Below, one piece after another: positions 16,741 through 46,842 of a DNA stretch of 64,000 nt. Within the stretch, counting starts at the first letter, position 1. Each line of letters begins with the position of its first letter. The DNA is taken from NCBI GenBank assembly GCA_026874595.1, contig CM049317.1:75732891-75796890 (forward strand), given 5' to 3'. Position numbers and translations under genes: made by a program. The notes below the pieces were generated by a model. The model made no database searches. It saw only the letters and a list, made by a program, of their open reading frames with translations, and was not told the origin of the DNA. This DNA is from Sipunculus nudus (lineage: Eukaryota; Annelida; Sipuncula; Golfingiida; Sipunculidae).

Positions 16741-19194
16741 TCACCGGAAATTGGCATAAGTACTGAAGGATTGTATGTAACGAAGTGCCGCTTGGTGGAG
16801 CCACTGGTACTCCTCCTTGATAAAGTAAAGAGAAATAAATAAATTAAGTACCAAACATGCAAAAGTAAACAAAAATGTACCATCCGTATCGAGTGATTTT
16901 CTGTCCGGTATTAATCTGAAATTTGAACTTAAATACTCTGTCTAACAGACAAAAATAAACCACGCATACAGCAGCGATACATTATACATTATAGAGTAAA
17001 CAACTACAACCGTTCAAGTGCAATTTTGGGGCTCTTGATAAAAGGGCAGCTTGTTTTTGCCTTGGAGAAGGTATGCGTTATACTGAATACTATTCAGTTT
17101 TTAGTTCGGCTGACTGAAAGTCATCTTTCAGGAATAGCAATCACTCTTTGTTCGGTCGTCCGGTCGTCCGTTTACAAGGCACAAATCGTAACCGCTTGGC
17201 CTAGACACTATCTAAACACCCATAAAGGTGCTTACAAATCTCCTTGGAAACCTGAAATAAGGTCGCTCTGACCTATATCCTCTGAGCTATTTGGCTCCTA
17301 AGTACCCCGAAAAATAATTTTTTAAAAATGATACAAAAGGTCATGTATCCGAGTAACTAATGCATTGATTGCCATGAATCTTTCCATGTATATTGATCAT
17401 GAAGTGTTTCATCATTTTCTGAAGACTGGTGGCGCCGCTTGTATTTTTTTCTATTTTTATTATTTCATCTATTTAGAGACCTTCATATGAATCAGTGCGT
17501 CCTTTAACAAATCACAAGCCGTAACCGTTAGACCTAGAAACTTCTAACTGTATATCCAGGGAGGTCCTGGGCATCTTCATGAAAACCTGTAATTATGTCA
17601 TGTTGACTCTATATTTTGCGAACTATGGGGCAAAAACATGGTTCTTAGTACCCAGTCAGTCCTATGTGACACAAATTGTATCCGTTAGCCGTAGAAACTT
17701 CTTATGTAACATCCAGGGAAATATTGGGCAAATCTCAATGGAATCCTGAAAATATGGTCATGGTGACCTATAAGGTCATGGTGATCTATACACAAGATAT
17801 GTTGAAGAACAAGATTTGAGCACCCTATGGGACAGATAAAAACAACTGATAACAGTTGGACCCAGAAACTTAAGGGATGTTCCTGCAACAAATCTTGGAA
17901 TCCTGAAATAATTTCACTGTGACCTATGTTCTGTGAGCTTTGTGAAAGAACATTATTCTGGCGTACTTTCAGTCAGATGGACACAAATTTTAGCAGTTGG
18001 ACAAAGAAAATTCTAACTTACCATCTAGGGAGATCCTGGGTAAAACCTCTTGGACAGAAAAGGTAACTGTAAACTATTTCTAAGGACTATTGGCAAAATT
18101 CATGATTTTGAGCAGTCTGGGAGTCATACTACCCATTGTTCAAGGTTCAATGAATTCAGCTGAGCAACATGGCCAATGGGCCACTTGTTTACTATAGTTG
18201 TGGACGAGCCGTGTCTTTGTACACGACATTTGTAGCCGCGTGAGGGGGTCTGACGTTAACGACGCTGTTTATATCTAGATCTATGTAAATATGTGCGCCC
18301 TCAAAACCCATAACCTGACGCCAACTTCCCCGGTGTTCTGTGTCATATGCGTGTGTATACGCTTAACTAAACATAATCGTACCTGGTAAACAAAGTGTCT
18401 AATTACTCACTTAAGTTGTTTAAATACAACTGTGTATTGGTATTAACATATTAAATTAAGGATGCCATAGATTTGTAGAAAAGACGTCTACTCAAAAGTA
18501 AATCAATTGCATTAAAAACAATAAAATAAAACAATGTATACAAGTGCTCACCATACAATTCTTTCCAAGTGATCATGTTTTATTTATTTTCAAATTATTC
18601 CATTAACCTACTGCTTGCACAGGCCTCCTTTGCCATATTTTTAGAACCACCAGATTCAATAAAAGTTCTATTTCATTTCAGCAAACCTGTAAGAAGCACT
18701 CTGATCGATCGGAAAGTTCATGACCCTGTGTCAACGCCATGACGACCGACTACTGAACTGGCGCCGAGGCAGGCATTTGGTAAACACAACGAGTTCAAAC
18801 TAATGTAAGGTGACCACTGTGTGAGGTGTGTATAGCTCACCGGTGACGTTATAAACTCAGGTCGGCTGATCCTGATCTGCTTCACGGCGTGAAACACGTC
18901 CACCTCCTGCTCGTCCTTGACCTTCTGACAGATGAGGCTCAGAGCGCAAAAAAAACCAGTCTCGTTCAGGCCATTCCTTTTGAAATAAATATGGGTATTA
19001 TAGTGATCGAATCTGATATGTAGGCGAATCCTCATATTAAAACCATATCCCATAATCTTTAATGACACGTTCAATAGGATTTCATATATGTTTAATCAGG
19101 ATTATTCTATAACATCCGGGTGCTGTTAATTCTTGCAATTTGATTAGTATAACAGGGTAACAAATATAGAGGTAAAGACTGAGAGAGTGGGTTC

Positions 19195-19237
<43 letters not shown>

Positions 19238-22200
19238 AGGCTTATTAGCACTAATTGTTACAGGAATCATTGATTAATTCTACCAAATCTTGAAACATAG
19301 GTTGATATGAACTCTCATTACATTTGGAAAACAAACTTTACTGGAAATGAATAATAGTTACCTTTATTTTATTACTGAATTAAGTCAGGCCAATGTATCC
19401 AAGAAAATGGACAACTGTTTCAGAATAGTTTAGGTTAAAGGTGTCTGGAACCTTTAGACAAGTTTTAAGTAACTGACCTACAGTGAAGAAGGACTGACTG
19501 ACGGCAGACGATCATTGGTCAACAAAGGACAGTTACTGACGTACAGTAGATCATTGACCTACAGAGGACGGTTACTGATTAACAATGGACGATTATGGAC
19601 CTACATTGGTCGATCACTGACCTACAGAGGACGTTTACTCACCCGCATTAGACGATCATTGACCTACAGTGGACGGTCACTAACCTACAGTGGACGATTA
19701 CTGACCTACAGTGGACGATAAATGATATACAGTGGACGGTAAACGACCCACAGTAGGCTATCGTTGACCTACAGCGGATGGTTATAACCTACAGAGGACG
19801 ATTATAGACCTACAGAGGACGGTTACTGACCTACAGTGTACGATCATTGACCAACAAAGTACGGTTACTAACCTGCAGTGGACGATCACTGGCCTATGGT
19901 GGACTGAAACTGACCTACAGAGGAAGGTTACCGATCTACAGTAGACGATCGCCGGCCTAGAGTAGACAGAGGCCGGTTACTGACCTTCAGGTAGATGACC
20001 ACTGAGAAACAGAGGACGGTTACTGAACTAAAGATGAAAGCCACTGGCCTGTGTTAGACGGTTACTGTCCTACAGGAGACCGTTACTGACCTACATATTA
20101 CTGACATACAGAGACGTTTACATATCTACAGTGGACGAACATTAACCTACAGAGGACAGTTACCTACCTACAGAGGACGGTTACTGACCTACAGTAGACG
20201 ATCACTGGCCTACAGAAGGCTTTCACTGACCGACAGAGGACGTTTACTGTTCTTTTGTAGACGGCCGATGAGCAACGGAGGACGGTTATTGACCTAAAGA
20301 GAACAGCCTCTGGCCTATGGTAGACGATAACCGGCCTACAGTCGGCGGTTGCTGACGTACAGAGACGGTTATACACCTAGAGTAGACGATCATTGACCTA
20401 TAGAGGTCGGTTACCTACCTACAGTAGACGACCATTGAGCAACAGAGGACGGTTACTTACCTTCAGTAGACGATCATTGACCTACAGAGGACGGTTACAC
20501 ACATACATACATGGACGATCATTTACCTACAAGCGACCTTTACTGGCCTACAGTTAACGATCACTGACCCACAGAGGATCGACGGTTTCTGACATACAGT
20601 GGACTATCGTTGACCTACAGAGGACGGTAACTGACACACAGTGGGCGATTGCTAACCGACAGCAGGCGCGGATCCAAGATTTGTTTGCAGGGAGAGATCA
20701 ACGGGTGTCATGCATAACATTTTCAAAAAAGGGCGTTGTTAACAGCGGGGGGGGGGGGACCCCTGTCATGCAAAAGATCTCTACCCCCAACCTCCCCCCC
20801 CCACCCTCCACCCCCTCTCTGGATCCGGGCCTGCGACAGAGGATGTTTATTGACCCATAGTAGACGATGACCTACTGAGGACGGTTACTGATCTACAGTG
20901 GACTATCATTGACCTACAGAGGACGGTTACTTACATACAGTTGACTATCGTTGACCCAGAGAGGACGGTTAGTGACAAACAGTAGACGATTACTAACCTA
21001 CAGTTTTTCGACCTACAGTAGACGATCTTCGACCTACATAAGACTATTACTGACCTTCAGTAGACGAGCTTTGATCTACATCGGAAGATAACTGAGCTAC
21101 AGTAGACGATCATTGACTTACATCGGACGATAACTGACCTACGGTAGATGATCATTGACCTACGGAGGACGTTTACTGACCTACAGTGGACGATGGTTCG
21201 ACCTGTGGTGTCTCCTTGCCGGGTGCTTTGTGCTGCTTCAACAAGGGTTATGTATGTATTGATATCAGGCAGACTGCCGTCAGGTGTATCCCGAGTGGTC
21301 GCCAAGTGGACTACCTTCTCTTGCTCTAATTGCTGAAACAGCCAACATGGTAATATAATATTATTAAAATCAAAGATAGCACATTATCACAAATCTTATA
21401 TTTTTAATTTATCTAGATAATTGTAGCTTCCTTCCCTTACATTCTATTTATATAAACACCTGCTTCATTTATATAGTTCAGAAATGTCATATCATATCCA
21501 TTGATTGTGAATAACGTACCCTGACTGAGTACAATACGATTGACTTGACAAATCCTTCTTCTCTGGTGGTTGACTTGACAGACACACGGAAAGGTCCGTA
21601 TGTGTTACCCATGGTGTAATCTGGGATTTCCTAAAATTTGAAAACAAATTAATTGAACCATACAGACATGGCTGCCGACTACACGTTGACATGATGTCTT
21701 TATTTCAATAACCAGGTCCTGTCGTTAAATGTTGACTACATCTTCAACTTTCGGCTGTATGGAGGGAAGCACCCAGGCTGTGATCGAGTCCACGTGTTGT
21801 CCTCCTGCACTGTTTTAACATTAAAACTTCCTCCCAAATGACTCAAAACTTTCCCCGACACAGTTATTACAATAACAAGTTGTAATGAGTATAATAAATT
21901 AATTCAATCCACAACTGTAGTATATACACACACACACACACATATATATACATACATTGGCAGAATCAAAAAGTACCTCTGTTTCGAACTTGTTTAGAGC
22001 TACGACCACATTGCACTCATAATCATGAATGAGGCGCCAGAAGTCATTAACTGTGCTCTCTAGTGGAGACTGCGTGGCCAGCATACTGTCACTTCTCACG
22101 TCGCTCTGAAACAGATCACTCAGGTTCCATTACTATGTAAACATCAACCTACTTAACCATTTAAGCATATGTCCAAGAATGAAACAATATTCATCAAGTT

Positions 22201-22633
22201 GGTTCAAAATACTAAATGTTGTGAAAACAAGAAAGCATATATGGAAATTTAACAAGAATCCGTTTAATGTCGGGATTCGTATCAAAATTATATAAAAAAA
22301 GTAAATAAAAAAATATATGTAGGTTGTTTCCAACACGCAAAATAATGACATTAGAGAATGATCTCCTTGACAATCTACCAGCATTTAATTGTTTAATGTC
22401 ACTGAATTGTAAACATGTAGTAAACACTTAGTACTAGAGTGAGTGTTTTTACTCATTACCTTTACAAAGACAGCGTTAATGTAATCATTTGAGCGTGGGA
22501 CAGGTGTCATGAGCAGGGGTCGCCACTTGTCAAGCGGAAGCAGCTTTTGGTTCCGGTTCTTCCTCTTGTTCTCCTCTAGTCTCCCTGCGGTAGTTTCTTG
22601 AGGTCTCACCGGGCGTCTCATCTTCTCTAACAT
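16741..22633 (-). CDS. Exons 23-28: PTP D2 pseudophosphatase domain and C-terminal tail
   Basis: Exons at 22633, 22105, 21630, 21332, 18976 and 16815 encode [42 protein letters not shown], then [16 protein letters not shown] where a WPD loop is expected, then the P-loop [35 protein letters not shown], and finally [14 protein letters not shown]...TYANFR. In CX5R the Arg is Glu1094, so D2 should be inactive and regulatory. The tail YANF (Tyr1154) matches the Grb2/Src SH2 site at the end of vertebrate PTPRA/PTPRE. The intron between exons 26 and 27 carries the minisatellite. Confidence 0.9.
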
Positions 22634-25600
22634 CTACGAGGAGAGATAAACCATCTCAAACAAAAAGACTAGATATTCACGGAATGACAATTCAGTACTT
22701 TAAAGAGACATATTGTTATTTCCTGTTAAAACTAAAGTTAATTCTGAATTAAACCTCTGTCATTCTAAGTATAATATATCCTCATTACTTTATACTTCCT
22801 ACCATTAAAGATGATAAGAATGAACTATCTGTATGTACTAGGTCTATCAACATCTTCATGTGGGCACCTTGTTTCCCTCCGTGAAAATAACTTGAATGCG
22901 GCACTAAGAAATAATAACATTCTAGTTGTGCTCAATAATACTAGCTATTTAAACATTAAATATGTATACCTGAAACTGTGTCTTTAATTCCTCACTTTGA
23001 TGTTCATTTATCCATGTTTCGAAGGTTGTGACGTCGTGAACGACCTTTCCACAGTGTAATGCTTCCAGTAGGGCTTCATGGATAAACTTGTACTGGTCCT
23101 AGAGAAAGAGTTTCTTGCCATGAATAACGTGTTTTTACTTAAACAAATAGCAATGGATTTAAAAGGTAAATCTAAAGTCTCCCCAAAGTATCAAGTGCTG
23201 TTTTAATAATTAAACTTAAACGTTACAAGACGCCGATAATGCATGGATCTGTGGGTTTTCTACGAAAAGTCTGTTTCATTTATCTATGACCGTATAACCC
23301 TTTCACATCTTTTATTCACATTTCTGATGAAATAATTGGACCTAAGTATCAAATTTAATAAATGATCTTGTTACCAGACTCTGGACCATGTTAACTCTAT
23401 GTTTCCTCATCTCCACGACACAGTTGTACACGCTGACCCTCCCCTCCTGTTGGGCCTGCTTCAACAGATAATCCATGGCGAGGAAAGTCCCTGTCCGCCC
23501 CACGCCCGCACTATTAGAAAATGACTCAATTAAATCCTCAATATTGTCTTAAGATAATTACTCATATTATATTTTATGATGTAATCCAGAGAAATTAAGT
23601 ATATACGAAAATTACCTGTCTTAATGTATGTAAATAATTAGCAAAGAGCGATAGAATAAACTGTCCATAATATATGTTTTATAAAGTAAAAAGTGCGATG
23701 CTCCATAGAAAATTTGAATTACGTGTTTATCAAAGTGTATTCAGAGACGGTCATAAAAATTAATAAAAGAAATTAAAACCACTTGATGCATCACAGCTGT
23801 ACTTATATATGCTACCTGCAATGTACCACCATTGGCCCTCGTGTGTTGTCATAGTGACTTGCTGCTTCTTTGTGGTATGTCAGGAAAGCCGTAGGACTCA
23901 GAGGGGTTCCGTGGTCAGGCCAGGAGATAAACTGCATGTGTCTCACAGATTTAATATCATCGTCCTAGAATCGTGCACAGAAAGTGTTAATGCCGATATA
24001 TGTAATCGATGTTAAAGAGCATTATTCACCCTTCCGGAATAAAAACAATGGATTTAACTAATCTCACAGCACTGTATGATATATTTCACAAGGGATAATT
24101 GAATTTTAAAAAAAAAATGCTCTGCCTGAATTTACCCAAGGAGCTGATTCCACATTGGAACAAAAAGGAATTTTTAAAATTATATTCCATATAATCTCAC
24201 GTAAATGTGTGAATATGAACTCATCAGGGAAAAACTCCGATACTGTACTTGTATGCAAATATAGGTAGGGCTATTTATTAAAACAATTTATCGATGAGTT
24301 AAATAGAAGTAAGCGGAAGATACAGGTAAAAAGAATTAGAAAAACTAAATACCTTATGTAAAATAAGTTCCCGGGTAATGTAATGCGGCTTCTGTTCCGT
24401 TTTCTTCAAAGACACGATTATCTCGTTAAATACTTTCGGTTTCTTATCATCTGGCCAGTACTGTTCACATTTAGCCTGAAAATATAAATTAAAAAACTAC
24501 GTCTCGACGAATAATATAATAGTATCTGTATTAAACCAGGTCTATTAATACAGATTTGGGCACCTTTGAAAGACGTATAGTGTGTTACATGAGGACGTAG
24601 TCCAGATGCTTAAAGAGCTGATAGATAGCCAGGAAATTCATCTACCATAGAGTCTCTCTTTTTGTTTTAATGTCTTTATCGCGTTAGATAGATACTTTGA
24701 AGTCTTGAAAGGTGAATATATTTCTCAGTCTCGAGTAAATACATTTCTGATACCGGGTACGTTGTTTGAAAATGTTACAAAACAATGCTTCGTTTATACC
24801 TATTTCAGGTAACTGACGAAACTGGGAGAATACTGTGTATAAATGTAAATTAATGTCGTATATAAATGAAAACATGAACGAATTTAATTTTATAAATGCT
24901 TATTCGGTACAAATTTTATTGCAATTAAAACTGTTACAAAATGTTATATACCTTTTTCGCCTTGTATTCTTTAAGCTCTGTTACCATGACAATCAGCGGA
25001 ACGTCATTTTCCCAGACCATGAGGATAAAATCGGCCAAGGTTCCCTCCACTGGACCTAATGAGAGTTAGAAATTGTCATATATTTTACAGGTAAATTACA
25101 TGTACAAGCATTTTATCTATTCTTACGTCGGGACGATCCAATTTCTCATTTTTTTCAACTTTGCATCGTTTCCGAAAGTTCAAGATAAAAACCCAGGTAA
25201 TTTCCAGGCATGGCTACAAAGCAGTTACATAACATCGATTAAGTGAAACCTTCGTAAAAAAAAAATTAAGATATAATGGCAGCAATATTTGATGATAAAC
25301 AACACAACACAAAACACTTGAAAAAGGGTACTGCATACGTCATCTTAAGACGACAAGCTTCAACTAGAGATAAAGAAGGGTTATAAGAATATGTCTTTTA
25401 CTTGGAGTGTAAAGCTTCTTTCAGCAATTGAAGAGTTATTTCGGACAATTGGTTGTTAAACAACTATATTTTTTTCTGTGTGTACTTGTTATTCAAGCCT
25501 AATTGTTTATTCTTTTTACGTGATGGAAACTTGTCATAGTCAATTCGTTTTACGGAATGGGAAAAAAATCATAGACCTGTTCACCCACCCTGAGCGGCGA

Positions 25601-26210
25601 TGAATGTGACAGAGTCGCCATAGCCCTGCGAAAATAATAAAAACAATCATTTGTTGACACATAGAATTATATCCTTTCGATCAACTGTTTTCTGCAAGAA
25701 ACACTGCACAGGATTGAAGGAAATGTCACATACACCTATCTCCTTTGTATAAAATGCGTAAAGGAATAATAAGATTTCATTATATGTATTTGTTGGACAT
25801 GTTCACGTGTGAATTACCGGAATGTAGCTGGCGTTGATGTAACTAGACACGGGATCATCACCAAACGTCTGAAGCTTCACGCGGTTATGATTGTCTGGAA
25901 AAAGAAAAATTTGTGCTGATACGTAAGAGACATTATTTATTGAAATTTCATGAAAGAAGGACGAGTTTTTTACTTTTTATGTGTTTAAAATTTTAATTTT
26001 ATTGACTCTTGAATCTGTTAATAGACGTTCTGATGTTGAGAAAGACACGCACAATGTTGTATACAATATACTAACATGGGATGATATTTCTGAACCTGTT
26101 TCTGGATCGATTTACCTCCATTTTACCAACAGTCACATCAGCGGATGGTTCGATGGAAATGGCCTAGAAAATAATGTGATAAAGAGATTAATAGCTACTT
26201 GTCGACTTCA

Positions 26211-26257
<47 letters not shown>

Positions 26258-29200
26258 CTGTATCATTTGTATAAAGAAAACGCGCGTTAGTGATTTATTA
26301 TTTTACCCATTCAGTCATGTAAATCATTCTTCAGTAAAGAATGTTTAATTGTTTACAAAGTTATAACAAAAATAATTTTATGGGTGGGTTGTCTTTAAGT
26401 CTGAAAATATGGTTAAATCATGGACAGATAGAATCAGAGGTACCCAAGACGAGGTAACAAGCCAAAAAAGGGGTATTCAGAGCACACAGGTAAAAGTTCT
26501 ATATTCACTTTATACTCATCCTCAAATCCGCCTGGAGTGTCCGTCATAAACCGGATATAATCTGGGAACTGACTGACAGAGATGGATGTCTTGTCATACT
26601 CTGTTAGTAGGTTACAGTACACGGCATCAAGGTCTACAGGAGCAGAAGAACTAGCAGCCTCATTCCCCTCGTCCTGGTTTGGTGCTCCAGTATTAGGTTG
26701 TTTGTCAGGGTTTTTGCCTGACTCACCAAAGGTCTCTGTAAGATCTTCAAAGTGTTGGTCTTTTTCTTTCGGCGGGAATATATCATACGACAGTACAACT
26801 TTCATTTCTCAATTAAAAAATATAAAGAAATTGAAATCAAATAACACACATTTATCTATTTGACAGATATCATATTTTGTGAGTGTAAAAAAAAATCTTC
26901 GAGGTGTTCGTGTGTAAGATAATGGTAAGCGTTCTCCTATAATATTGGTTTTATATTTAAATTAAGTATGATATTATCATTTACCTTTAACCGAATCCTC
27001 TTGACGAAAACCGGAGTCGGAATGCCTATCCCTCCGCCTGTAAATTTATATAGAAATATATAAAAGTTTATAAAATCTATACAGTTTATTTCACTTGCTT
27101 ATCGTGTCATGCATTTTGGATTTGAGCCTTATCATAGATTATCATATCGTATGACATATTAGTCACAGAAAGATGGGTATAAACAAGTAAAATATACGAA
27201 TACATTACCTAAGCCACACCACCAACAGAATGACAATGATTAATAAGCAAACGCAACCGGCAGTCGTTCCGGCGATGATTCCCGACATTTGAGGTGAGTT
27301 TGCTGGAACTTGGAGGAAAAAAAATAGATTATTTCAGGAAACTGACTTCGTGTGTGTTTATTTACATGTGAGTGACCAAATCTATGACACCATCAGCTGT
27401 TTGGTTGTCTTTTATCTCTTTCGGGAGATAATCAAGGCGTTTGGTCGTCAGGAAAATGTAACGAACAGAGAGGTGTCATTACAGCCACATATATGAAACG
27501 GTAATTAATATTCTATTTTGCATGTTAAATAGTAATTAATATTCATTTTGGCGTACTTTTGTAAGCTAACATGATTTAGATTTAATCTTACAAATGAGAC
27601 CCCAGAATTATTGGTATAGCCGTTTTAGTCTGTAGTCGGAGTTTAGGGAAAGAGTAAGAGTGACGCTAATTAGACATACTTTTAAACATAATTTAGTCTA
27701 TCTAAAAGGTGTCACTCATATCATATAAGAATTTGAATCATGTGGAAGAGAAGTGATATACAACACTCCCTGTATACATTCATGTCTCTGTCAGATAATC
27801 CGTGATATTTAAACAAAATATACACAGGAATAAGAAAATAATAAGCCAAAAATCAAGATTATGACTTTTCTAACACGCACAAAAACAATTTAACAGAACT
27901 GGTGTTTTGAATGAAATACTTACGAGGCGTCTTTGAATGGGCACAGCGTATTCCAGAGAAAAATTGTTTACAATCACAGCTACCGTTCTTCGGGTCACAG
28001 TCTAGTGTGTCCAGGCAATTTTCAGGACATGTTTCATTACAGTTAATGCCGTATGTTCCGGGATTGCAGCCTGAGAAAGATAGAAAGTAGAACGTTAGAC
28101 TTTAGGACAAATGTGAACGGTGTAAATACAATCTAGTGCGTGCTTAATGGTTTACAAAATTATACAATGCGACCCAAGTGATAAATCTTTTGAGTGTTTT
28201 ACAGTTGAAATTGTAACACTTCCTTTAAAATTTGTTGTTGATAACTTTCCAATTCACTGCAATTTTGAAGAGGAAAGATAAATCTGGTCGATGTTGTATG
28301 TTGACTCTTCAAATTGATTTATAACCTGTTTGACAGCCTTGTCCATGCCATCCAGCAGCACACCCACTCCATGTACACGTACCACTTGTCTTATTACAAT
28401 CTTCAGTAGTGACCAAACATCTACATTTACTGCCGCAGTTCATACCGAACGTACCATCTCTGCATTCTGTGTATCCAATATTGTACTTAAACAGCAATAA
28501 CTTCTCAGACTTATTTTTAGCCGTATTGATAAATCATACATAAAAAACACACTTCATGTGAATATGACTGAATTAACTTTCTTGTGTCTGTTTTATGTAT
28601 TTAATGTACTAGAAACTGAGATTAAAACAAGGGAAATATGTTATCTGATACATCCCATAGTGAACTCAACTTTTCGCGAAAGCTGATTGTACCTAGGCGG
28701 CGAAAACTTATGTTTAAGTGTCTCTTCTGATTAATGAAAGCCTTAATCCAGACAGCATTTTACGTTAAATAGTTTACCTGTGGGACATCTTATTCTGTGT
28801 GACACATACCTTCATGGCATGTCGGAGGCCGGTATCCCGCTTGACAAGTACAGGTGCCCGTTATCTTGTCACACACTCCGGGAACATCGCAGTGATCAGA
28901 GCAGGTATCCGTACAATTCAACCCATACCGCCCTTCTCCACATGCTTATTAATTCATTATATATTAGTAAATAATAAGTGTTATTAAACCCGGCAAAACA
29001 TATTGTAATATGAATAACTTTTTTATCATTTCTCTTAATGATAAAGCCAGCTTAATGTATCTGTGCCGTTGTTTACAATAAACATCCATATTTTTTTAAT
29101 AAGGATTGTAATACTAGGAATGAAAAATAAAATATTAATTATATATTATATCATCATAATAAGTACTCTTCTAGGATTGTAGGAATGTAGAAGATATCCT

Positions 29201-32200
29201 TATACAGACCATATTAATTTATGTAAATCTTTGTTGTTTGGCAGGCAAAGGGTAAATGTGTACTTTTAATAATTATTTAGGCTTATATGGCTTCAGCCTT
29301 AGAATTTATACTATATGTCACACACCGTGTAGACATGTAGGAGGCTGGTAGCCCGCTTGACAGGAGCAGGTGCCCGATTCCTTGTTACAGACTCCGGGTT
29401 CCTCGCAGTGATCAGAGCAGATACCTGAACAATTCAGTCCGTACCGGTCCTTTTCACATGCTAATCAAAAACATTGTGTACATTGAAAATGAGCAACTTA
29501 TAAAAAAATAATCAGCTTTCTTGATTACACTATGATGAAGCCAGATTAATATGTTCATATTTATTCCACTAACAAACGTTAAAATCATTATTTAAATTAC
29601 GTGAAGTATGCAGAAAGGATAATAAAATATTTACTAAATTTTCGTGAAGAAGACTGTCAATCAATAATACATAAATATATTTCAGTTCTTTCACCATATT
29701 AAAAAATCTTTTAATTTTATATAACACAAAAAAGGGATAAATTTTAATAACATAATTATATCTTAAAACTGTTATAAAATTTAGAAGAAGGAAGTATAAA
29801 GAGGAGGGTAACATGGTATCATTACTTTTAATTACTCATTTTGTTTCGCTGTATTTTCGCACGGCTATTCATACTTGCACGTTGCTCATGCCTCGTAAAT
29901 AAAACCTACCGTCGTGGCACGTAGAAGGTTGATAGCCAGCTTCACACGTGCAGCTGCCCGTGATCTTGTCACAAACATTAGGTTCCTCACAATGATCAGA
30001 GCATATACCCGAACAGCTTAGTCCATATTTCCCGCTTTTACATTCTAGGTAACAGTTAAAAATATATAAATTTAATATATACATTTAAACCGTAAGTACG
30101 CGGGTAATGTCTGGATCACAGAGGTTAATGTTCTGTTGACGGCCATTATAATTTGTATAACAATTTCCATATTATTTGATAAATAGCATACCTCATTTAA
30201 ATGATATATTAATTTTTATATTGAAACATCTGAGTTTGCATATTTAAAATATTTAAAGTATTTTACCAAATTAATTCATTAAAATATTTCACCAAGTTTA
30301 TTAATTTTTAATGATTAATAAAACGACAACTCCTATATAAGAATCACGTCCTGTCACAGTTAACAGGGCATTCTCTGGCACAGTCTGGCCCTTACTAATA
30401 ATTTTCATATGCCGCATGAAAATCAACAGATTCAGACGAATGTGTGCTCTATTTTTTAAACAAATTACCTTTGTAATTGTACAATTATTATGTCCATTCA
30501 ACATTTAACCGTATTTGTCTCTTGAAAATGCCACATCTTTTATAACCAATGATTAAATCAAGTAATTTTAGGTACTTACTTATCAATGGTGAAGCATAAA
30601 TAAGTTGTCTGTTTATTTGTTAAATTATTTAATATATTGTTATTAATATTGTTAGGATAAATTTGTAAACAAAGTCAAAGCGAAGTCGTAAATTCTACAT
30701 GGTTCATACAGTGTTATATAATATATATTCATGCCTGTGCTACAGTTACTGCCGGTCCATCCAGCTGCACACCCGGACATGCAACTACCAGTTGTTTTGT
30801 CACAAACCTCAGATGGGATCCGGCAGTGGCAAGGATCACAGAAAACCCCAAACCGTCCGTCTCTGCACTCTGAGTAGAACATAGATTGCTTTAAATCACA
30901 ACTACGAATATCATAACTTGGATTTATTAAACAGACATACATGACACCTCGAAAGGATTTTGGTTGCTCATTTTCATAACGATTGTTTAATGGGTATAAT
31001 AATTGAAATTGCTGAAGGTTTCTGGAAGCACACCGATGTGAGGAGCATCCTTATAAATATAGTGTTGATTTTAATTTGAATGTATTTACGAGTAACGACA
31101 ATAGATTATATGTTAGGCACAAACAAATGTATAATAACCACAAACAATGTACAATATACGGACACTTAGAGATACTCCATTCCTTAATAACCCATGCCTT
31201 CATTGAATACACATACATATTTCTTAGATTTTTTACAAACCTTGACAGGATCTTCCTTGAAAATCCCGATGGCATCCTCTAGGACACACACCCGTTGCCG
31301 AGTTGCATGTGTTCTGTTTATCACTGCAATGGCACTCAGATTCGCAGTTAACTCCAAACCTTCCATTGGGACATGCTACATTAAAAATAAATATAGTAAG
31401 CACGTTTTATCTAAAATAAACCCTTTTCACAGAGAGGGCAACTTTCAATGTGTGCTACGAATAAATAATAATCATTGATCAAAGAAGTAAAATGTGTTTT
31501 GGAATGCTTCATCCAGACAATTCATTGAGAGTTTTAACCATTCTACATAATAAATATTGGTTCAAACCCTATAGTTCGGCATTAAATGAATCACGCCTGA
31601 CCGATGTATGATGTATTACATAATTCTGTGCCACAAGGTGTTGTGATTTTCATTTTTAGACCTTTTGTTTATTCTTATAACCATTTCATAATTGGTTGGT
31701 TTATACAGTAAGCCTTTTTGCCATCACCATCATATATGTTGTTTTAATGCTGATATTCTTTTACATTTTTTATGACTAAACACGTTTAAAAATATGTAAA
31801 GGGCAGATGACGTACCAGAAATGTTCATTTTTTGTTATGGTTTTGGATCTATGAGACTATCTTTAATATTGGACACAAGCCTGTTTTATTCTATCCAGTA
31901 GTAAGGTGAAACATGCACATAATTCATATATCATATCAAATTGTTAACAGCACTACAATTATAATATTATATATTACAACTCGCTCATCTAATATAAGCG
32001 CGACAAAACCTTAACACTATCAATACAGATATTTCTATCTCAAGTGAATACCAGTTAAAACCATGACGAATATATTATTATTAAAACTTAACTTATAACA
32101 CAATTTCTATTAAGATATAAATTAATTTAAAATATTATTGATAAAATAACAGAGCATACTCACTACAAGACTTCATGGTGCACCATTCCCATTTTTCATT

Positions 32201-32838
32201 CAGGTAAGTATAGCACCACGGACTTGAATCATAACCAGGGTTTCGGCAGTAGCCGCCTGCATTCCTGAAATCCGAATCTGGAAATTGCTCTGCTATATAG
32301 CCTGTTACCCTGGTAGCCCAAGTGCTACAAAGACCCCCATTGTCGCCCAATGCACGTTTTCCTTGATACTGCTTACCTATATCGTCATTGTAAGTACATG
32401 ATGAATCTGCGTGAAACAATGATATAAACATACAAATAACTGTCTAGATTACGTCTGTATCTATGAAACTCGCTAGTAGATCTTGTTTTCACTTTTTTCT
32501 GTAACTATTAAACTCGCCGGAGATATCTGCTTAAAAAATGGATCAAAAGAAAGAATCGAACAACATTGTATCTAAAAACATCATTAATAAAAGATTCATA
32601 GTCCTATTCTACAAGAGAATACCTGAAATCTAAATTATGTGCCCATGTCGATAGCTGAGTTTCATATATTTTGAATCGTAGATGAACAACGGGGATTTAC
32701 TTAATAGGCATCCGGGTCCCCATGTCGATCCTGAGCAGCTCTCACACTGTCCCGTCACCCGGTCACATGAACCCGTACATAAACAGTCATACCGGCACTG
32801 CCAACCGAATTTCCTTGCCGGGCATGCTACACCTACAT

Positions 32839-33336: not shown

Positions 33337-35090
33337 TTTAAATATATTTTATTTAATCCATTTAAATCACGTTTATTTTTTGTTATTTTTAGGAAGCCTA
33401 TGATTTTACAGCGTTATTCAACATATGGCTTCTATTATCCTGGTATTCGTTTAATATTTCCCTATGAGACCAAGGACGGATATAGGATCAAAGAAAGGAG
33501 GGCTCAGCACCTTGCCTCAGGTAAGGAAGTGTACATGGAGTGCTTATAGAATTCATACATAATTCTTGCAAGTAGAACAATCGAAAAGACTAAAATTCTG
33601 CAATCTAAGAAAGGCAAGCCTCCGCCATGTGTGTGGTCCCTATTGCTGGATGATACCCATCCACGACGGAGTTCCTAAATCCGGATCATATACCGGGTCC
33701 ACACCAAAATCTATTCGATTCTTCCTTTTCCCATTCTCAAATTGCCCTGAACATTTCATGAGAATTTTTCATACTTTTGTGATATAATAAACTTAAATTA
33801 AAATTCTCTATCCATATACCCCTATAAGACTGAATTTTATTTTATGCTTATCCAAATTACCTTAAATTGGACTGCACTTCCACATATCCTTCCAGAATGG
33901 AAGCTTTTCCACTGTTCAATTTTGACTGTTCTTGCGTATCCATTATTGTTTGTATTTTTAAAGTAATTCATCCCTATACCCAGAAACAGTAAGAAAGATA
34001 AAGGTCAGATTTCCTGACCAACTAACCTAACATTATTTACAGTGTCCAAGGTCCCTGGAATATGTCTATTATATTATTCGTTATGTAATGTTACACGCAT
34101 CTTTGAAAGACTGATAAAACTTAAAACTGATAAAATTTATTTGGCGTATTCCTTCAAGTGACCCGACGAGCAACATCAATCTTACAGAAACGCTGTCATT
34201 GATTGAATTTATGTCACTAAAACCTATACTGTAAGATCAGTATTAGCGAATAGTATATAAAACTGTAGTATGATACTACAAGATGTCGGAGAAATGAGAT
34301 GCAATACCTAAACTGTGGCTCTTTAATAATATCCAGGTAGGTAGTGGTTATATAAGAAGTATCATTGTCACACATATTATACACATAAGATCTAAACCTT
34401 GAAAACACATGGCATGTGTTCAGTGAATCAATATTAGGCATAAATGGCGTTTAACCTGTATTTACACAAAACCCCTGAATAATATAGAAATAAATGACTC
34501 ACCGCTGATTGGATCATATAGTATCATCGACAACAGACAGATCACACAGATCTCAATTACCCAAAGAGACCTAAAAATATGACATTGAAGGTTATAATGT
34601 CGTTTTATTATTTTTTTTGGAAATAACGATAAAGATTATCATTCATGTTTCTTTCTTGTACCCAAAATGTACTGATCAAAGTGTCTAGCATAACGACAGT
34701 GCCTTATGGATTGATCTGATAATAATTCAAATATTATTTTCATGAAAAACGTTGGTTAATCAAATACTTTATTATAAAGGAAACTGTTAATCATATGGGA
34801 AACATCTAGCTTAAGACAAACACATTTAACCCAATACGGGAACTTAATAACTGGACATTTTTTCGAAATTCACGCCATTTTATAACGTTTAGTTGGCTCA
34901 AGTTGTCTAACAACAAGAATAACCAATATTGTATTAGTGTTTTAGAATCACAAATATTCGTGATCATCAATAATTCAACAGTTAATTTAACGTTGGCTTC
35001 GTCTAATTTTATCTCTACATCCCTTTTTCTCTCACACACGTAAACACCGGCAGACACATATATAATGAACTTATATAAATTATACCTCAT
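16741..35090 (-). CDS. Receptor-type tyrosine-protein phosphatase with kringle and EGF-like ectodomain (28 coding exons)
   Basis: Exons 5' to 3' on the minus strand: 35090-35086, 34570-34503, 32826-32701, 32406-32164, 31375-31241, 30869-30735, 30044-29910, 29460-29326, 28944-28810, 28466-28326, 28070-27924, 27308-27209, 27037-26985, 26807-26509, 26163-26076, 25894-25818, 25625-25589, 25055-24952, 24475-24353, 23964-23816, 23510-23375, 23098-22970, 22633-22460, 22105-21977, 21630-21520, 21332-21181, 18976-18841, 16815-16741. All phases agree and the total is 3477 nt (1158 aa) without a stop. Order: signal peptide (1-~24), EGF1 (25-66), kringle (67-147), EGF2-8 (148-468), membrane helix (about 478-501), juxtamembrane, PTP D1 (about 600-895), PTP D2 (about 900-1148), TYANFR tail. 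It should sit in the plasma membrane and remove phosphate from phosphotyrosine through Cys811 and Arg817. D2 is inactive by sequence. One donor is GC; the rest are GT-AG. Exon ends are read by eye. Confidence 0.9.
17150..18180. repeat. Diverged intronic tandem repeat, about 150-170 bp period
   Basis: Within the last intron, units repeat the order CACAAATYGTAACCGTTAG, CCTAGAAACTTCTAACT, ATCCAGGGAGATCCTGGG, GGAATCCTGAAATA, GTGACCTAT, CTGTGAGCTAT. Copies start near 17161, 17493, 17655, 17822 and 17970; the first is followed by unrelated DNA. The downstream paralog shows at most a remnant. Confidence 0.75.
19200..19232. repeat. (GA)n microsatellite
   Basis: A pure run of about 16 GA units inside the D2 intron. 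Confidence 0.95.
19495..21180. repeat. Minisatellite of about 21-bp units adjoining the D2 splice donor
   Basis: About 70 diverged units, read on the plus strand as TGACCTACAGTGGACGATCA alternating with TGACCTACAGAGGACGGTTA, giving a 42-43 bp higher-order pair. On the coding (minus) strand each unit reads like ATCGTCCACTGTAGGTCAGT, which is the same as the end of exon 26 plus its donor (ATCGTCCACTGTAG|GTCAGT at 21190-21176). The array runs from that donor into the intron. The matching intron of the paralog (44226-43416) has only about two such units. Confidence 0.93.
20663..20833. mobile_element. 171-bp inverted-repeat (MITE-like) insertion in the minisatellite
   Basis: The element begins CAGGCGCGGATCCA and ends with the reverse complement of CAGGCCCGGATCCA (13 of 14 match). 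The 6-bp word CGACAG lies directly on both sides (20657-20662 and 20834-20839), which looks like a target duplication. Its inside is G-rich then C-rich (20744-20815). No coding capacity. Family not identified. Confidence 0.8.
22970..25894 (-). CDS. Exons 16-22: PTP D1 catalytic domain
   Basis: Exons at 25894, 25625, 25055, 24475, 23964, 23510 and 23098 encode in order [40 protein letters not shown], the WPD loop [10 protein letters not shown] (Asp779), the P-loop [14 protein letters not shown] (Cys811, Arg817) and the Q-loop region [19 protein letters not shown]. All catalytic residues of a classical tyrosine phosphatase are present, so D1 should be active. The P-loop is split by an intron directly after HC, as in other receptor PTP genes. 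Confidence 0.92.
26076..26807 (-). CDS. Exons 14-15: juxtamembrane region and start of PTP D1
   Basis: The 299-nt exon at 26807-26509 encodes an acidic, Pro/Gly/Asn-rich linker, then AVYCNL (Tyr583, a YxN type Grb2 motif if phosphorylated) and the D1 start, [11 protein letters not shown]...EDEYK. The 88-nt exon at 26163-26076 (acceptor TTTTCTAG, donor CAT|GTTAGT) continues with [12 protein letters not shown] and joins the next exon to give PYNHNRVKL. This is the phosphotyrosine recognition loop; the usual KNRY is RNRF here (Phe643). Confidence 0.82.
26985..27308 (-). CDS. Exons 12-13: transmembrane helix and stop-transfer segment
   Basis: The 100-nt exon at 27308-27209 encodes [17 protein letters not shown] followed by [15 protein letters not shown], a single membrane helix of about 24 residues. 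The 53-nt exon at 27037-26985 continues as [16 protein letters not shown], a strong positive stop-transfer on the cytoplasmic side. Phases join cleanly (CTT AG|G CGG). Neither exon has a visible counterpart in the downstream duplicate. Confidence 0.88.
27924..28070 (-). CDS. Exon 11: EGF-like repeat 8 (membrane-proximal)
   Basis: A 147-nt phase 1-1 exon with [18 protein letters not shown] followed by [12 protein letters not shown] and GIRCAH. Its length and spacing differ from repeats 2-7. A 147-nt paralog lies at 52439-52293 in the downstream duplicate. Confidence 0.85.
28326..31375 (-). CDS. Exons 5-10: EGF-like repeats 2-7
   Basis: Six phase 1-1 exons of 135, 135, 135, 135, 135 and 141 nt. 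Each encodes one EGF/laminin-like unit that starts with xCxxGxxGxxC and ends with a GW/GY-x-x-x-x-C segment. Repeats 4-6 are close relatives (CSDHC, VCDK/NK, CQAGYxPPTC), pointing to recent internal exon duplication; repeats 3 and 7 share CAAGW. Similar units occur in MEGF10-type scavenger receptors and in molluscan EGF receptor phosphatases. The exon at 30869-30735 ends at a GC donor (CACAG|GCATGA). Confidence 0.88.
32164..32406 (-). CDS. Exon 4: kringle domain
   Basis: One 243-nt phase 1-1 exon encodes a full kringle of about 80 residues. Six cysteines are present ([33 protein letters not shown]), with the signature [13 protein letters not shown] and the preceding [12 protein letters not shown] core. 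Kringles bind proteins or lipids outside the cell and are known from clotting proteases, ROR receptors and some molluscan and cnidarian mosaics. Symmetric phases fit gain by exon shuffling. No copy of this exon is found in the downstream paralog. Confidence 0.92.
32701..32826 (-). CDS. Exon 3: EGF/laminin-like repeat 1
   Basis: A 126-nt phase 1-1 exon encoding about 42 residues with eight cysteines in laminin-EGF spacing ([19 protein letters not shown]...[13 protein letters not shown]). Acceptor GTGTAG, donor GTAAAT. It begins the mature ectodomain directly after the signal peptide. A long (TA)n array lies just upstream in the intron. Confidence 0.85.
32838..33335. repeat. Two large (TA)n arrays upstream of EGF1
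   Basis: Nearly pure TA from about 32838 to 32938 and again from about 33283 to 33333, with about 340 bp of unique sequence between them, all inside the intron between the signal-peptide and EGF1 exons. Confidence 0.9.
33336..34502. other. Intron between signal-peptide and EGF1 exons, nothing else seen
   Basis: No extra exon could be supported. A plus-strand open frame at 33566-33787 has no recognisable domain. Confidence 0.5.
34503..35090 (-). CDS. Exons 1-2: start codon and signal peptide of the receptor phosphatase
   Basis: The start ATG is at 35090-35088, followed by AG and a donor GTATAA. The next exon begins after TTTTTAG at 34570 with G, so the split codon reads AGG and gives [20 protein letters not shown]. 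That is a short basic start plus a hydrophobic core, a good secretory signal. The exon ends in phase 1 (AGC G|GTGAGT), which matches the phase of every ectodomain exon downstream. I chose this ATG because it is the only one that joins in phase to the signal exon; the 5' UTR extends upstream of 35090 by an unknown length. Confidence 0.8.
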
Positions 35091-40860: not shown

Positions 40861-43771
40861 GATTAGAGTACGCGGGTTTGGGTTAGGGGTTAAAACTAAG
40901 ATTTTATTATTTGAACATGCTTTTATCATAAACCAAAATTGTATCTTGTGAAGGGTGAGTAAAAAACTACATTTATATTGATGAAGTATAAGTTTAGAGT
41001 ACTCATGTGGGGGGTAGTTAGATTGAAGACCAAGGTTTAATGATTGGAACATTTATGTCAATGAGACTTTTCATCTTTCACAAAATGGTGTATCATGTGA
41101 CAATGGCCAAGAGCAATCTCGGTATTTTTATTTCTTTTATTTACATTTTCCAAGTGAATGGGTATTTACCAGTTGTTTTATATGACCATGTTTCCGGTTC
41201 TGTTAGATTACGTACACGTTATAGAATTTATCATTTTTGGTCATAAACAAGACGCAGAAAGTAACAACTCAATATATAATATTTTATTAAAATATTTTCT
41301 GTACCAAACCTTCACATAATGCAACAATATTGTGATATACCGTTATTGAGCTCATAAGCACCCCTTTATGATTTCCTGGTTCCTTACAAACTGTTCATTG
41401 CTTACAATTGAAATTTTAGCTATAAAACCTGGGAAGTGACTCTCTAGAGACGTCCGGGAACGTCACATACTCAAAAAGGTTATCGGTTGTTTTTTTTTAT
41501 TAATGAGGCACATTGTGTGCCTGTCTGAAACTGTAATTATATAAAATATTTATTGACTCTACTAATGTCCCGTGTAAGGTTAATGTCTCTATAGTAAGTT
41601 TAATTTCAAGAAAGTATTTCTTTCGGCACATTTCTCACGGATCTATAATTGGGTTATACATATTGGAAACAATATGGTTGTTTATAACGATACGCATCAT
41701 TAGAAATGGGCTCCAGATAAGCCCGTGCTTTATTAAAACATGCATTTATTATTCACAGGGATTATTAAAGAGAATTTACTGTATTAAAGTGACAGATATA
41801 AACTAAAACTTCATCAAAAACATAAGGCATCATATTTTTGAAGGTGTGCACTTAAGAGGTTTCCGCTTATTGAATATTATTACATTTATCAAGAAATAGA
41901 AAAAAGCAGCGGGTATCTTTATAAATATCTTTCCCCAAATATATTACGGACATATATACAAGTATGTTACTATATGCAAAAAACGTAAATGTGTATGTCT
42001 GAAAAAAATCAGTGAATATCTGTTACATGGTATTTTGTTTTCATCAGTAGCATCATTCGAGTTTTTCATCTGTTGTATCTTCAGATCACCGGAAGTTGAC
42101 ATAAGTCCTAAAGGACTGGATGTACCGAAGGGTCGCTTGGTGGAGCCACTGGTACTCCTCCTAGATTAAATAGATAAAATAATAAATCAATCAATTAAAT
42201 AAATAAAGAAGAGAACGTACCTCAAAACAATGTGTATAAGCAAATTCAGCAAATATCCGTCCAGTGCTGATTTGAAATTGGTACTTAAATACCCTATTTT
42301 TGAAACAAAAATAAACCACGCATAAGGCAGAGACACATTAGTTCTAAGGGTATGCCAGTCACAGCAATACAACTGGTTATTTCCGCCAAGGAGGTTATGT
42401 TTCCTCCGTTTCTGTCTGTTTGTTGGTCGGTTTGTCTGTTGTGAAGCTTACGCAAACTATTGAACAGCTGCTAATTTAAGAAGGATGGTGAAACAGACCT
42501 GGCAAATATTACAAGGTAGGTAATTAAGCAGCTTGGTTTTGCCGTGGAGGAGGTATGGGCTTTACTGATTCTGTGATACAGCAAATGTGTACTAGCTATA
42601 TCGTTGTAAACTACATTTGTATACTATAGCTGCGTGAGCGGAACAGAGGATCACTGAATCTGTTACTTTTTAGATGTATGTAAATATGCAGCCGCTCAAG
42701 ACCCCTAACCTTGCGCCAACTACTCCGGTGTTCCGTGTGTTTTACATATGTGTAAATATAACTGAGCATGACGGTGCCTGGTAATCAAAATATATGTTTA
42801 CTCACCCGTCACCTAATAAATTCTAGTGGTTTGATTAAAAGAAGGTGCCACTGTTTACCTGTACTTAGCCATAAATTCAGGATAAAAAAGGCTGGTGGGG
42901 AAGACTTGTACCCACCAGTAACTCAGTGGCACCGGAACAAATGATTAGGATAATATATGTAAATGTAGGTCATGCCAGTGCTCACCATTCACTCCTGACG
43001 CAGTGGTCACAATCAATCCATTTTAACGTATTCCATAAATGTACAGGCAGCCTTTCCCATATACCCATAAACCCATATACAGCCTCCAGCTTTCCCTCAA
43101 ATTTCTATTTCCCTTTATCCATGTCTGAAACATCCATTCTGATCGGTTGGAAGGTTCTTTACCATGTGTCAGTATCATTGCGGTCATGTACAGGATAGGC
43201 GGCCTAGACAAGCTGTTGACAGGTGGAATGGGTTTAAACGAATGTAAAGTGATCACCACATGAGGAGTTTATAGCTCACCGGTGACGTAATAAATTCAGG
43301 TCGGCTAATCCTGATCTGCTTCACGGCGTGAAACACGTCCGCCTCCTGCTCGTCCTTGACCTTCTGACAGATTAGGCTGAGAGCGCAGAACAAACCGGTC
43401 TCGTTCAGGCCGTTCCTTTTGAAATAAATATGAGTATTCTAGGGAATACTAGTATTATATCCTCCAATCAACACCAAATCTTGAAATATTTAATGGCATG
43501 TTTAGCGAGGGAGCGAGAGAGACAGAAGGCTCAATTTCATTAATTTGCCCTGAATTCATCTGTAAGACATCGCAGCTACCTACCAACTCCTTAACTATGA
43601 GAAAACCGACCCATTAACACCCCTACGATAAAGTAGGCGGTCCTGGGGGTCAGGGTTGGAAAAGCCCTTCACTTGTTCTCTAGCGGCTGAGTGAGATAGA
43701 CGTGTGCCCCTAACCCAGGAGATTTTGGCCGGAAATGGTTATTTCTCCAAAGATTGCTTTTTGTCAAATTA

Positions 43772-44071
43772 TTATAACATGCTAAATGGCCAGACATTAA
43801 TGGACATAAGGTAAACCATTTGGTGGTACAAGTCTCGATTATAAATCTCTTTAATAACCAAGTTTAACACACGGACTGTTAGTATATGTTTCTGCTTACT
43901 TATATGAACCATTATAAATTCGTAAAGATCTTTCAGCAATTTGGTGATTTGTTGATTAAACTGCCTGTGTTTTTTTATATCTGGAAAATATTCTGCACAT
44001 CGATTACTGCTATATAATTTGGAAATTGCCTTCTTCCGTTTATATGAACTCTTCCTGCTTTTTGAAAACAT
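43772..44071 (-). other. Unassigned Lys/Arg/Ile-rich open frame inside a paralog intron
   Basis: A 99-codon minus-strand frame (MFSKSRKSSYKRKKAISKLY at its start) lies in the intron between the last two D2 P-loop exons of the pseudogene. No domain is recognised and there is no counterpart in the intact gene's intron. It may be chance or a piece of an inserted element. Confidence 0.2.
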
Positions 44072-45176
44072 ATTTTAATGGAAGAGACGTCTTATTTATC
44101 TTTATAGTGTTTTGCCACTGCTTCAGAGAATAACAAACAATCGTCTCATGGTGTTTTAGGCTAAAGGTCTGTGTACCATTCATGACAAATCATTGATCAT
44201 TGACCTGAAGAGAACGGTTACCGACCTGCAGTGGATGATGCTTCGACCTGATGTGTCCCCTTGCCGGGTACTATGTGCTGCTTCAACAAGAGTAATGTAT
44301 GCATTGATATCAGGCAGACTGCCGTCAGGTGTATCCTTAGTGGTCGCCAGGTGGACAACCGTTTGTTGCTCTAGTTGCTGGAAAAGCCAACAGGTCATGT
44401 AACCTTTATAAATATAGATTGCCTATTACAAAAAAAGGAATCATGTAAAGAATATATATTTCATGAAAGAATATTTTGATATACATTCAATATATTATCA
44501 GCCCTCGTTGATTTACTATAAATCTACAGGTTTGATTTACATGTTGTGTATATGTGTCAATGTATCATTTACTGTATATATAAAAGGGTTTCTTGTATAC
44601 CCTAGTTCTTTTGTGAGGACAATGTGTTACCCAAATTTAATATTTTGTAGTTCGAATTAATATTCCACTTCTAAGAAGCACCCGTTTCATTTATATCATT
44701 CATGTCAGATTACATCATAGGATTGTGAATAACTTTCCCGGACTGAGTACAGTCCGACTGATTTGACATAGCCGTCGTCCCTGGTGGTAGATTTTACAGA
44801 CACACGTAAAGGCCCGTAGGTGTTACTCTTGATGTAATCTGAGAAAACCTAAAATGTGAAAAAAATACAAAACACATTCATGCCTATCCACTAAAGGTTA
44901 ACACGATGTCCATTGTGTCACTCACCAGGCCTGGTCGTTAAATGTTGACTAAGTTTTGACTACGTTAAATGTCGACTACCTTGACAGAATTACTATGGCA
45001 GCTTTGACCGAGACTACATGTGAATCATTTGGACTGTTTAGCATTAATATTTCCTCCAATTAGCCCCACAAAACCGAAACCATTTAATTATAATAATAAT
45101 TATAATACATTAATTTAATCCAAGTGTAGTGTTTACTTTCACTAGAATTTAATAACTCTATGATATATACACAAAC

Positions 45177-45179
<3 letters not shown>

Positions 45180-45228
<49 letters not shown>
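45180..45228. repeat. (TA)n array next to a paralog D2 exon
   Basis: Pure TA run 21 bp downstream of the donor of exon 45377-45249. Confidence 0.9.
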
Positions 45229-45231
<3 letters not shown>

Positions 45232-45422
45232 GGCAGAATCAAAAGTACCTCTGCTTCGAACACGTTAAGGGCCACGACCACATTGCACTCATAATCACGA
45301 ATGAGGCGCCAGATGTCATTAACGGTGGTCTCTAGTGGAGACTGCGTGGCGAGCATACCGTCATTTCTCCCGTCTCTCTGGAACAGATCACTAAGGTACC
45401 ATTTAAAACATTTAAAACGGGG

Positions 45423-45729
45423 CTGGGCTAAATACCGAAATACACAAAAATCACCTAAAAAATACCAAAATACACCGAAATACACTGAAATAACACCGAG
45501 AAACAATTAAATAACACCGAAATACATTTACATAACACTAAATTCACACTGAAATAACACCGAAATATACTTAAATAACAGTGAAATACACTGGAATAAC
45601 AGTCAATACCACCAGTATATATGTTCAATACACAATATATATACATTTAAACCTTATTAATATATAATCTATATTTATAATATAAATATGAATATATAAA
45701 ACCCAATTTATGATCTTTAAGAAACCTTG

Positions 45730-45764
<35 letters not shown>

Positions 45765-46312
45765 ATATATAAATATATAAATATATAAATATATACTTAT
45801 ATCTAAAGTATATATATTTATATATGTATATATATATATTTTTTTTTTCTAGGTTATAAATATATATATAATATAATTATATATAAGAAACCTATAAAAT
45901 AAAGATAGACCTAGAAGGAATTTTTTTACAGTAACAATAGTATTATCATCTTTGCACCCTCAGAATTAAGTTAGTCACACACCAGAGTAGATGTCAATGG
46001 ACTGTTTACTCTCCTATTTACCTTTTCCCCTTGGAGCTCCTAGGAAGCCCACTCCACAGCCAGGTTTGTACCTGCTTCACCCATGACTGGACATACACAT
46101 CCAGCATTATGTGACATAATGGCATCCACCCAACTTGTTTAGATGCTGCACATGGTAATGCCAGGGTAGGGTTTCTCAATGTTTATAAATCTATTATGAC
46201 TATACTAAGCTCAATTATATATTAGCTCAAAATACACCGAAATAACAACAAAATACAATGACATGACACAATAATACACTGAAATAACTGTCATTACCAC
46301 CAATATAGGTGT

Positions 46313-46350
<38 letters not shown>

Positions 46351-46842
46351 ATTATAAATCTATTATGACTATGCTAAGCTCAATTATATATTAGCTCAAA
46401 AGGCACCCAAATAACAATAACATACAATGAAATAACATAATAATACACCGAAATAACTGTCATTACCACCAGTATAGGTGTATAATATATATATATATAT
46501 TATTATAAATCTATTATGACTATGCTAAGCTCAGTTATATATCAGCTCAAAATGCACCGAAATAGCAACAAAATACAATGCAAATAACACGATAATACAC
46601 TGAAATAACTGTCATTACCACCAGTATAGGTGTACAATATATATATATTTAATTATATATATATATATTTATATAAAAGGTATATATATATATATGTATA
46701 CTGGTGGTAATGACTTTTATTTCGGTGTATTTTGGTGTTATTTCAGTGTTATTTCAGTGTATTTTGGTGTTATTTTAGTGTATTTTGGTGTTTTTTCGGT
46801 GTATGTTGGTGTTTTTTGGTGTATTTCGGTATTTAGTCCAGA
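45423..46842. mobile_element. Foldback-like element with long inverted arms built of short repeats
   Basis: The left arm (about 45423-45620) begins CTGGGCTAAATACCGAAATACAC and is a string of CACCGAAATA/CACTGAAATAA words ending CCACCAGTATA. The right arm (about 46695-46842) is the inverse, starting TATACTGGTGGTAATGAC and ending GTATTTAGTCCAG. Between them lie AT arrays and three tandem copies of a unit of about 150-170 bp that starts ATAAATCTATTATGACTATG (46185, 46354, 46504), each also ending in CATTACCACCAGTATAGGTG. No protein coding. It interrupts the intron between two D2 exons of the pseudogene; the intact gene's intron (22106-22459) lacks it. Confidence 0.72.

Follow-up and report, generated by a model that had tools for sequence, protein, structure and literature searches.

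A predicted receptor tyrosine phosphatase with a kringle in its ectodomain and its relatives in the genome of Sipunculus nudus

Receptor protein tyrosine phosphatases (receptor PTPs or RPTPs) are grouped by their ectodomains, and to our knowledge the usual ectodomain types do not include a kringle, a domain familiar mainly from proteins of coagulation and from growth factors. The stretch of 64,000 nucleotides analysed here, referred to as the window (G000:C12:75732891-75796890 of the Sipunculus nudus assembly GCA_026874595.1, which comprises 1.43 Gb in 153 contigs), contains a kringle exon and exons for a membrane helix and two PTP domains (D1 and D2) on the same strand. The locus raises the question of whether the kringle is part of a receptor PTP gene, as an earlier note on this DNA had proposed, and what such a domain would do on a phosphatase. 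It very probably represents a type I receptor gene encoding a signal peptide, an EGF domain, a kringle, seven further EGF domains, a helix, a D1 with intact motifs and a D2 pseudophosphatase, and belonging to a family.

A single gene model of 29 exons (E1-E29) extends from 35090 to 16741 on the minus strand, with exon borders chosen by frame and homology from the genomic sequence alone (Table 1). From the ATG at 35090 to E24 at 21977 the model is a single open frame with GT-AG borders, except for the GC donor after E6. Every exon from E3 to E11 (EGF1, the kringle and EGF2-EGF8) has phase 1-1, so that a module could be inserted without a frame shift. The kringle exon has a clean acceptor (tttcacgcag/) and donor (TTGTA/gtgagt) as well as phase-matched neighbours, and its placement in phase between EGF1 and EGF2, as first described in the earlier note, is borne out. 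E3-E14 share one frame, which joins the ectodomain to a single helix followed by RRRDRH (the helix and topology were read by eye). A likely GC-AG intron follows EGF3 at 30730-30740 (CACAG/gcatga).

Table 1. Features of the kringle-PTP locus and of the neighbouring copy (positions in the window; a slash marks an exon-intron border)
Feature	Position	Strand	Basis or remark
E1, start codon exon (ATGAG)	35086..35090	-	donor ATGAG/gtataa, in-frame join to E2
E2, hydrophobic signal-peptide-like exon	34503..34570	-	read by eye
E3, EGF-like 1 (ends WGPGCLL), phase 1-1	32701..32832	-	resembles EGF2-EGF8
E4, kringle exon, phase 1-1	32164..32406	-	PF00051, PDB kringles, own-genome relatives
E5, EGF-like 2, laminin-EGF type, phase 1-1	31241..31375	-	frame and Pfam
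E6, EGF-like 3, phase 1-1, GC donor	30735..30869	-	frame and Pfam
E7, EGF-like 4	29910..30044	-	frame and similarity to other repeats
E8, EGF-like 5	29326..29460	-	frame and Pfam
E9, EGF-like 6	28810..28944	-	frame and similarity to other repeats
E10, EGF-like 7	28326..28466	-	frame and similarity to other repeats
E11, EGF-like 8	27924..28070	-	frame and similarity to other repeats
E12, transmembrane helix exon	27209..27308	-	by eye; same exon in paralogue L077
E13, juxtamembrane basic stop-transfer exon	26985..27037	-	counterpart in L077 is RRRNGRACDGFRRNKPAE
E14-E22, PTP domain D1, WPDHG and signature motif intact	22970..26807	-	Pfam, PDB
E23-E29, PTP domain D2, degenerate, without WPD	16741..22633	-	Pfam; stop TGA 16743-16741
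Decayed tandem copy, 3' part of same gene	42089..53113	-	EGF6-8, D1 and D2 remnants

The kringle exon alone matches the Pfam family PF00051 with 48.0 bits (1.6e-12; gathering cut-off, 34.3) and encodes six cysteines. The same family is found with 45.4 bits in a 194-aa piece composed of the kringle exon and its neighbours. The kringle is absent from the hmmscan output for the 902-aa protein and the 470-aa ectodomain, which contain the same residues, and we take this for an effect of HMMER's filters. The exon also matches 92 PDB sequences (E up to 1), and the 60 of these that were listed include the kringles of plasminogen, HGF, tPA, prothrombin, apo(a), ROR1/2 and factor XII. AlphaFold gave no usable model of the exon alone (pLDDT 43.7), and NCBIfam contains no match for it. 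Within the 64-kb window, no Rfam match and no second kringle (E up to 1) were found. One plasminogen-type kringle is located 45 kb past the window end (C12:75842169, L065).

In the EGF array, Pfam EGF_laminin and EGF_2 were detected (E up to 1), and the PDB match of the array is Tie2 (angiopoietin-1 receptor). EGF1 alone has no Pfam match (E up to 1) and is assigned as EGF-like because it is similar to the other EGF repeats. Y_phosphatase matches D1 with 252.2 bits (6.5e-75) and D2 with 150.3 bits (8.8e-44; query with X at the start of E25), and the 60 PDB matches listed, of 257, for D1 and the initial part of D2 include PTPRS, LAR, PTPRA/E and PTPRK/M/T. D1 retains both SWPDHG and the HCX5R signature, the motif region of which spans an exon border; with these catalytic motifs intact, it is predicted to be an active phosphatase. 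D2 has neither the catalytic Arg nor a WPD loop. A second, usually inactive PTP domain is common in receptor PTPs, though not universal.

The earlier note had further stated that the gene continues without a stop through the membrane helix into two PTP domains. This is exact as far as D1, but in D2 exons E24 and E25 can be connected only by non-consensus donors. The best donor of E24 ends in phase 0 and E25 requires phase 1 or 2; allowing a single GT-AG exon in between, a script returned 14 frame-keeping combinations from six donors, none of them near consensus. The junction (21740-21990), which affects D2 only, may reflect a lesion, an assembly error or unusual splicing. It favours the view that, within a real kringle-RPTP family, this copy is a pseudogene or has been damaged in assembly, as does the clearly decayed neighbouring copy, in which the equivalents of E19 and E21 contain stops and the WPD and PTP motifs are changed. 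That view is nevertheless considered unlikely, because the other 28 exons are open, the D1 motifs are intact and the motifs of the affected D2 are non-catalytic in any case. Within the long D2 intron, after E27, lies a 21/42-bp minisatellite (19507-21194) with a unit resembling the E27 splice junction (CACTGTAG/gtcagt), so that translation of many copies yields VHCRS-like repeats; one matching stretch is listed for the decayed copy (44195-44239).

Relatives of the kringle were sought in the genome with PF00051 (150 of 350 candidates scored, many clustered) and with the window kringle exon as query. The best relatives after the exon itself, among the 150 of 272 candidates scored with this query, are located on contig C2 and show up to 64% identity. 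Thirty loci from the kringle-exon search were fetched with 1.5-kb flanks, and 21 of them contain EGF1, kringle and EGF2 in order. At L032, EGF1 and a kringle are followed by EGF2 in the neighbouring L077; L048 contains EGF1 and a kringle, and L040 a kringle and EGF2. The other six are kringles only, four of which (L052, L057-L059) group with the plasminogen type. A phase-1 AG is present at the kringle exon start in 29 of the 30 loci, a feature that is weak by itself, several positions being allowed. Large clusters of plasminogen-type kringles (L001-L030) occur at C9:28.9 Mb, C10:33.3 Mb and C15:50.5 Mb (150 of 350 candidates scored).

The exons for EGF1, the WPD region of D1 and D2 gave 56, 65 and 70 matches in the genome, respectively. 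Same-strand matches separated by gaps of up to 36 kb were arranged in an ordered list, which was built partly from kringle matches and took 41 of 150 kringle rows, 56 of 56 EGF1 rows, 19 of 65 D1 rows and 23 of 70 D2 rows, rows elsewhere being omitted. This list comprises 16 EGF1-kringle-D1-D2 loci, 20 EGF1-kringle loci, 19 EGF1 loci, five kringle loci, four loci with D2 alone, two D1-D2 loci and one EGF1-D1-D2 locus; at the last of these a kringle-like exon starts when the sequence is read. Thirteen of the 16 complete loci are on C2, nine of these within 51.58-52.27 Mb, and the least sure is a C4 locus stretched over 56 kb. As the kringle-PTP order is found at 16 loci, it is above chance.

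Linkage was also counted with every row included, namely 211 merged kringle places and 65 D1 and 70 D2 matches. A same-strand kringle lies upstream of 15 of the 65 D1 matches within 20 kb and of 16 within 36 kb, compared with two of 65 that have one downstream and none with an opposite-strand kringle within 20 kb upstream; by simple arithmetic, the chance of a same-strand kringle at most 20 kb upstream of a random place is about 0.15%. The D1 matches with an upstream kringle have ranks 1, 3-15, 27 and 56, so that nearly all of the nearest relatives have one. For 14 of the 15 best matches the distance is 6-17 kb; the one exception, at rank 2, is the window's decayed copy. No kringle is listed upstream of the RPTP matches on C13 and C15, and the kringle lists are lower bounds. 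Ten D1 loci (L067-L076) were read; nine contain both WPD and the signature motif, and the tenth is the decayed copy. Four PTP matches are located in open frames of 902-1347 aa (C5:69714399, C9:10216818, C10:10515068 and C10:10505795) and perhaps represent intronless or retrocopied phosphatase genes.

A second gene, L032/L077/L069 (C2:51.68-51.70 Mb), was read in part and contains EGF1, kringle, EGF2, more EGFs, a helix exon ending in VWLR/gtgagt, the basic exon RRRNGRACDGFRRNKPAE and the D1 exons. That ectodomain, helix and D1 can be read together in another gene argues against a rival arrangement of two head-to-tail genes, one for a short secreted kringle-EGF protein and the other for an EGF-RPTP, with the single model as an artefact of exon joining. 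Such an arrangement would draw on the 20 EGF1-kringle loci, e.g., L033, L034 and L035 (C2:88.1-88.4 Mb), at which the same searches detected no D1 or D2 exon, so that the kringle ectodomain seems to exist also without a phosphatase. It is highly improbable for the locus in the window, where the exons are matched in phase from the kringle through the transmembrane exon to D1 in an order that recurs at 16 loci. This recurrent order, together with exons of compatible phase running from the signal-peptide-like E2 past the kringle into D1, supports the proposal of a kringle encoded within a receptor tyrosine phosphatase gene. A tyrosine kinase tail was considered for the PTP-less kringle loci and rejected, as no kinase match was present nearby among the matches listed. 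At L078 (C2:88872400-88875200), a kringle-like exon is preceded by a row of several EGF1-like copies, one of which contains a stop.

The kringles of this family were compared with 34 other kringles of the genome and eight human kringles in a tree of 84 columns, with many forks left unresolved and an arbitrary root. A branch with support of 99/86 sets 25 family kringles apart, and a single origin of the family kringles is likely. Among 27 kringles, up to four of which may be plasminogen-type loci, pN is lower than pS in 351 of 351 pairs, with a median pN/pS of 0.49. The median pN/pS is 0.31 for EGF1 (pN < pS in 252 of 253 pairs), 0.29 for EGF2, and 0.24 and 0.16 for two D1 exons with the decayed copy included. 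Twenty loci have all three exons, and in 188 of the 190 pairs that they form the kringle has a higher pN than the EGF mean, at about equal median pS. Restricting the comparison to non-overlapping pairs gives the same result in all 10 (Wilcoxon p 0.002), but these were picked by low EGF pS, a choice favouring this outcome. The median pS of 0.80 is near saturation for most pairs, which makes estimates of selection rough, and relaxed constraint would give the same picture. Judged by these pairwise values, the kringle exon is shown to change faster at the protein level than its EGF neighbours.

The loop between CRNP and WC has 6-16 residues in 21 family kringles versus 7-9 in 30 others. Asp after CRNP is present in two of the 21 family kringles versus 28 of 30 plasminogen-type kringles, GPWC in one versus 30, WC[YF]T in 11 versus 30 and RW.[YFW]C in two versus 25. 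Six cysteines are kept in all 21 aligned family kringles, but the extraction pattern required them. Lysine-binding kringles of the plasminogen type have an acidic pair (D55/D57) and an aromatic pocket. In the window kringle the acidic-pair positions are occupied by Gly and Asp, and W62, Y64 and a Trp near 72 are present. Asp at loop positions 1 and 3 occurs in none of the 21 family kringles and none of the 30 plasminogen-type kringles (Asp then Asp/Glu, in eight of the latter), and the textbook acidic pair thus does not separate the two groups. The idea that the plasminogen type retains a lysine-binding acidic pair which the family has lost was rejected, Asp at both positions being absent from all 30 plasminogen-type kringles too. 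The family kringles have lost most of the residues conserved near the lysine site in the plasminogen type, which fits changing ligands and also relaxed constraint. The loss of these residues in most relatives argues mildly against plasminogen-like ligands; the window kringle itself could still bind lysine. The ligand classes suggested in the earlier note, protease-like and lipid/Wnt-type, are neither favoured nor contradicted by these sequences.

The scarcity of Asp after CRNP and of GPWC in the family is also what would be seen if the kringle were a structural spacer or a relic without ligand-specific function, and a raised pN is likewise expected from relaxed constraint. This reading is possible but doubtful. 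Against it stand the excess of pS over pN in every kringle pair, the six cysteines, which were however required for extraction, and the kringle listed at 16 of 17 EGF1-D1-D2 loci in a list partly built on kringles, the 17th also starting a kringle-like exon.

If the locus encodes a single receptor with a functional kringle, the kringle would provide a divergent protein-recognition surface that differs between family members, and the EGF rod would keep it away from the membrane. In receptor PTPs, ligand-driven clustering or relocation changes the access of D1 to substrates. Ligand binding, clustering or relocation of the S. nudus receptor may similarly alter the access of D1 to phosphotyrosine substrates at the membrane, and D2 would be regulatory, as suggested by receptor-PTP biology. 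A more speculative and rather improbable extension is that the duplicated receptor PTPs form a diversified recognition system, in which the kringle is remodelled, in sequence and loop length near the lysine site of plasminogen kringles, from copy to copy for different microbial, self or matrix ligands and the phosphatase stays much more constant. If true, kringles would form the basis of a repertoire comparable to those of immunity or allorecognition. Conserved phosphatases with variable kringles would also represent a natural experiment in the change of kringle partners and offer testable orphan receptors.

No kringle receptor PTP was found among the titles and abstract starts listed from the open-licence PMC literature, in which searches on bivalve receptor PTPs listed no paper; predicted proteins with this architecture may exist in sequence databases. 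In the available parts of two papers, a kringle is mentioned in coagulation factor II only (PMC11788884) and in a MAC/perforin protein only (PMC4581086). Receptor PTPs are among the higher-expressed transcripts in oyster hemocyte comparisons, with no mention of a kringle in the available part of the paper (PMC13070813), and this expression is only a hint as to where such receptors might be looked for.

The gene in the window is similar to the double-domain receptor PTPs (PTPRS/LAR, PTPRA/E and PTPRK/M/T/U) in that it encodes a transmembrane receptor with a D1 carrying WPD and signature and a D2, and these proteins are among its best PDB matches. Unlike them, it has an ectodomain of EGF1, kringle and EGF repeats; Fn3, Ig, MAM and carbonic-anhydrase domains went undetected with Pfam at thresholds of E 0.1 (long construct) and 1 (ectodomain). 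With Tie2-type EGF arrays it shares the PDB match of its EGF array, whereas it encodes a phosphatase instead of a kinase and has no Ig or Fn3 by Pfam. The Pfam family, the six cysteines and the CRNP...WC pattern are common to its kringle and those of the plasminogen/HGF type, but the family kringles form a separate group in which the conserved motifs are mostly lost and the loop is more variable in length.

ROR receptor kinases consist of Ig, Frizzled and kringle domains and a kinase. They resemble the present gene in that the kringle is part of a membrane receptor within the tyrosine phosphorylation system, and ROR1/2 kringles are among its PDB matches. Unlike ROR kinases, the gene encodes a phosphatase rather than a kinase and EGF rather than Ig and Frizzled domains, and it is not an ROR member; no kinase match was present near the C2 kringle loci among the matches listed. 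A kringle located 0.7 kb before a same-strand tyrosine kinase match (C4:18697132-18698899) probably marks the ROR gene of the same genome. As a phosphatase counterpart to the ROR kringles, the architecture seen at the 16 ordered loci would show that the module has been recruited to the opposing arm of tyrosine signalling.
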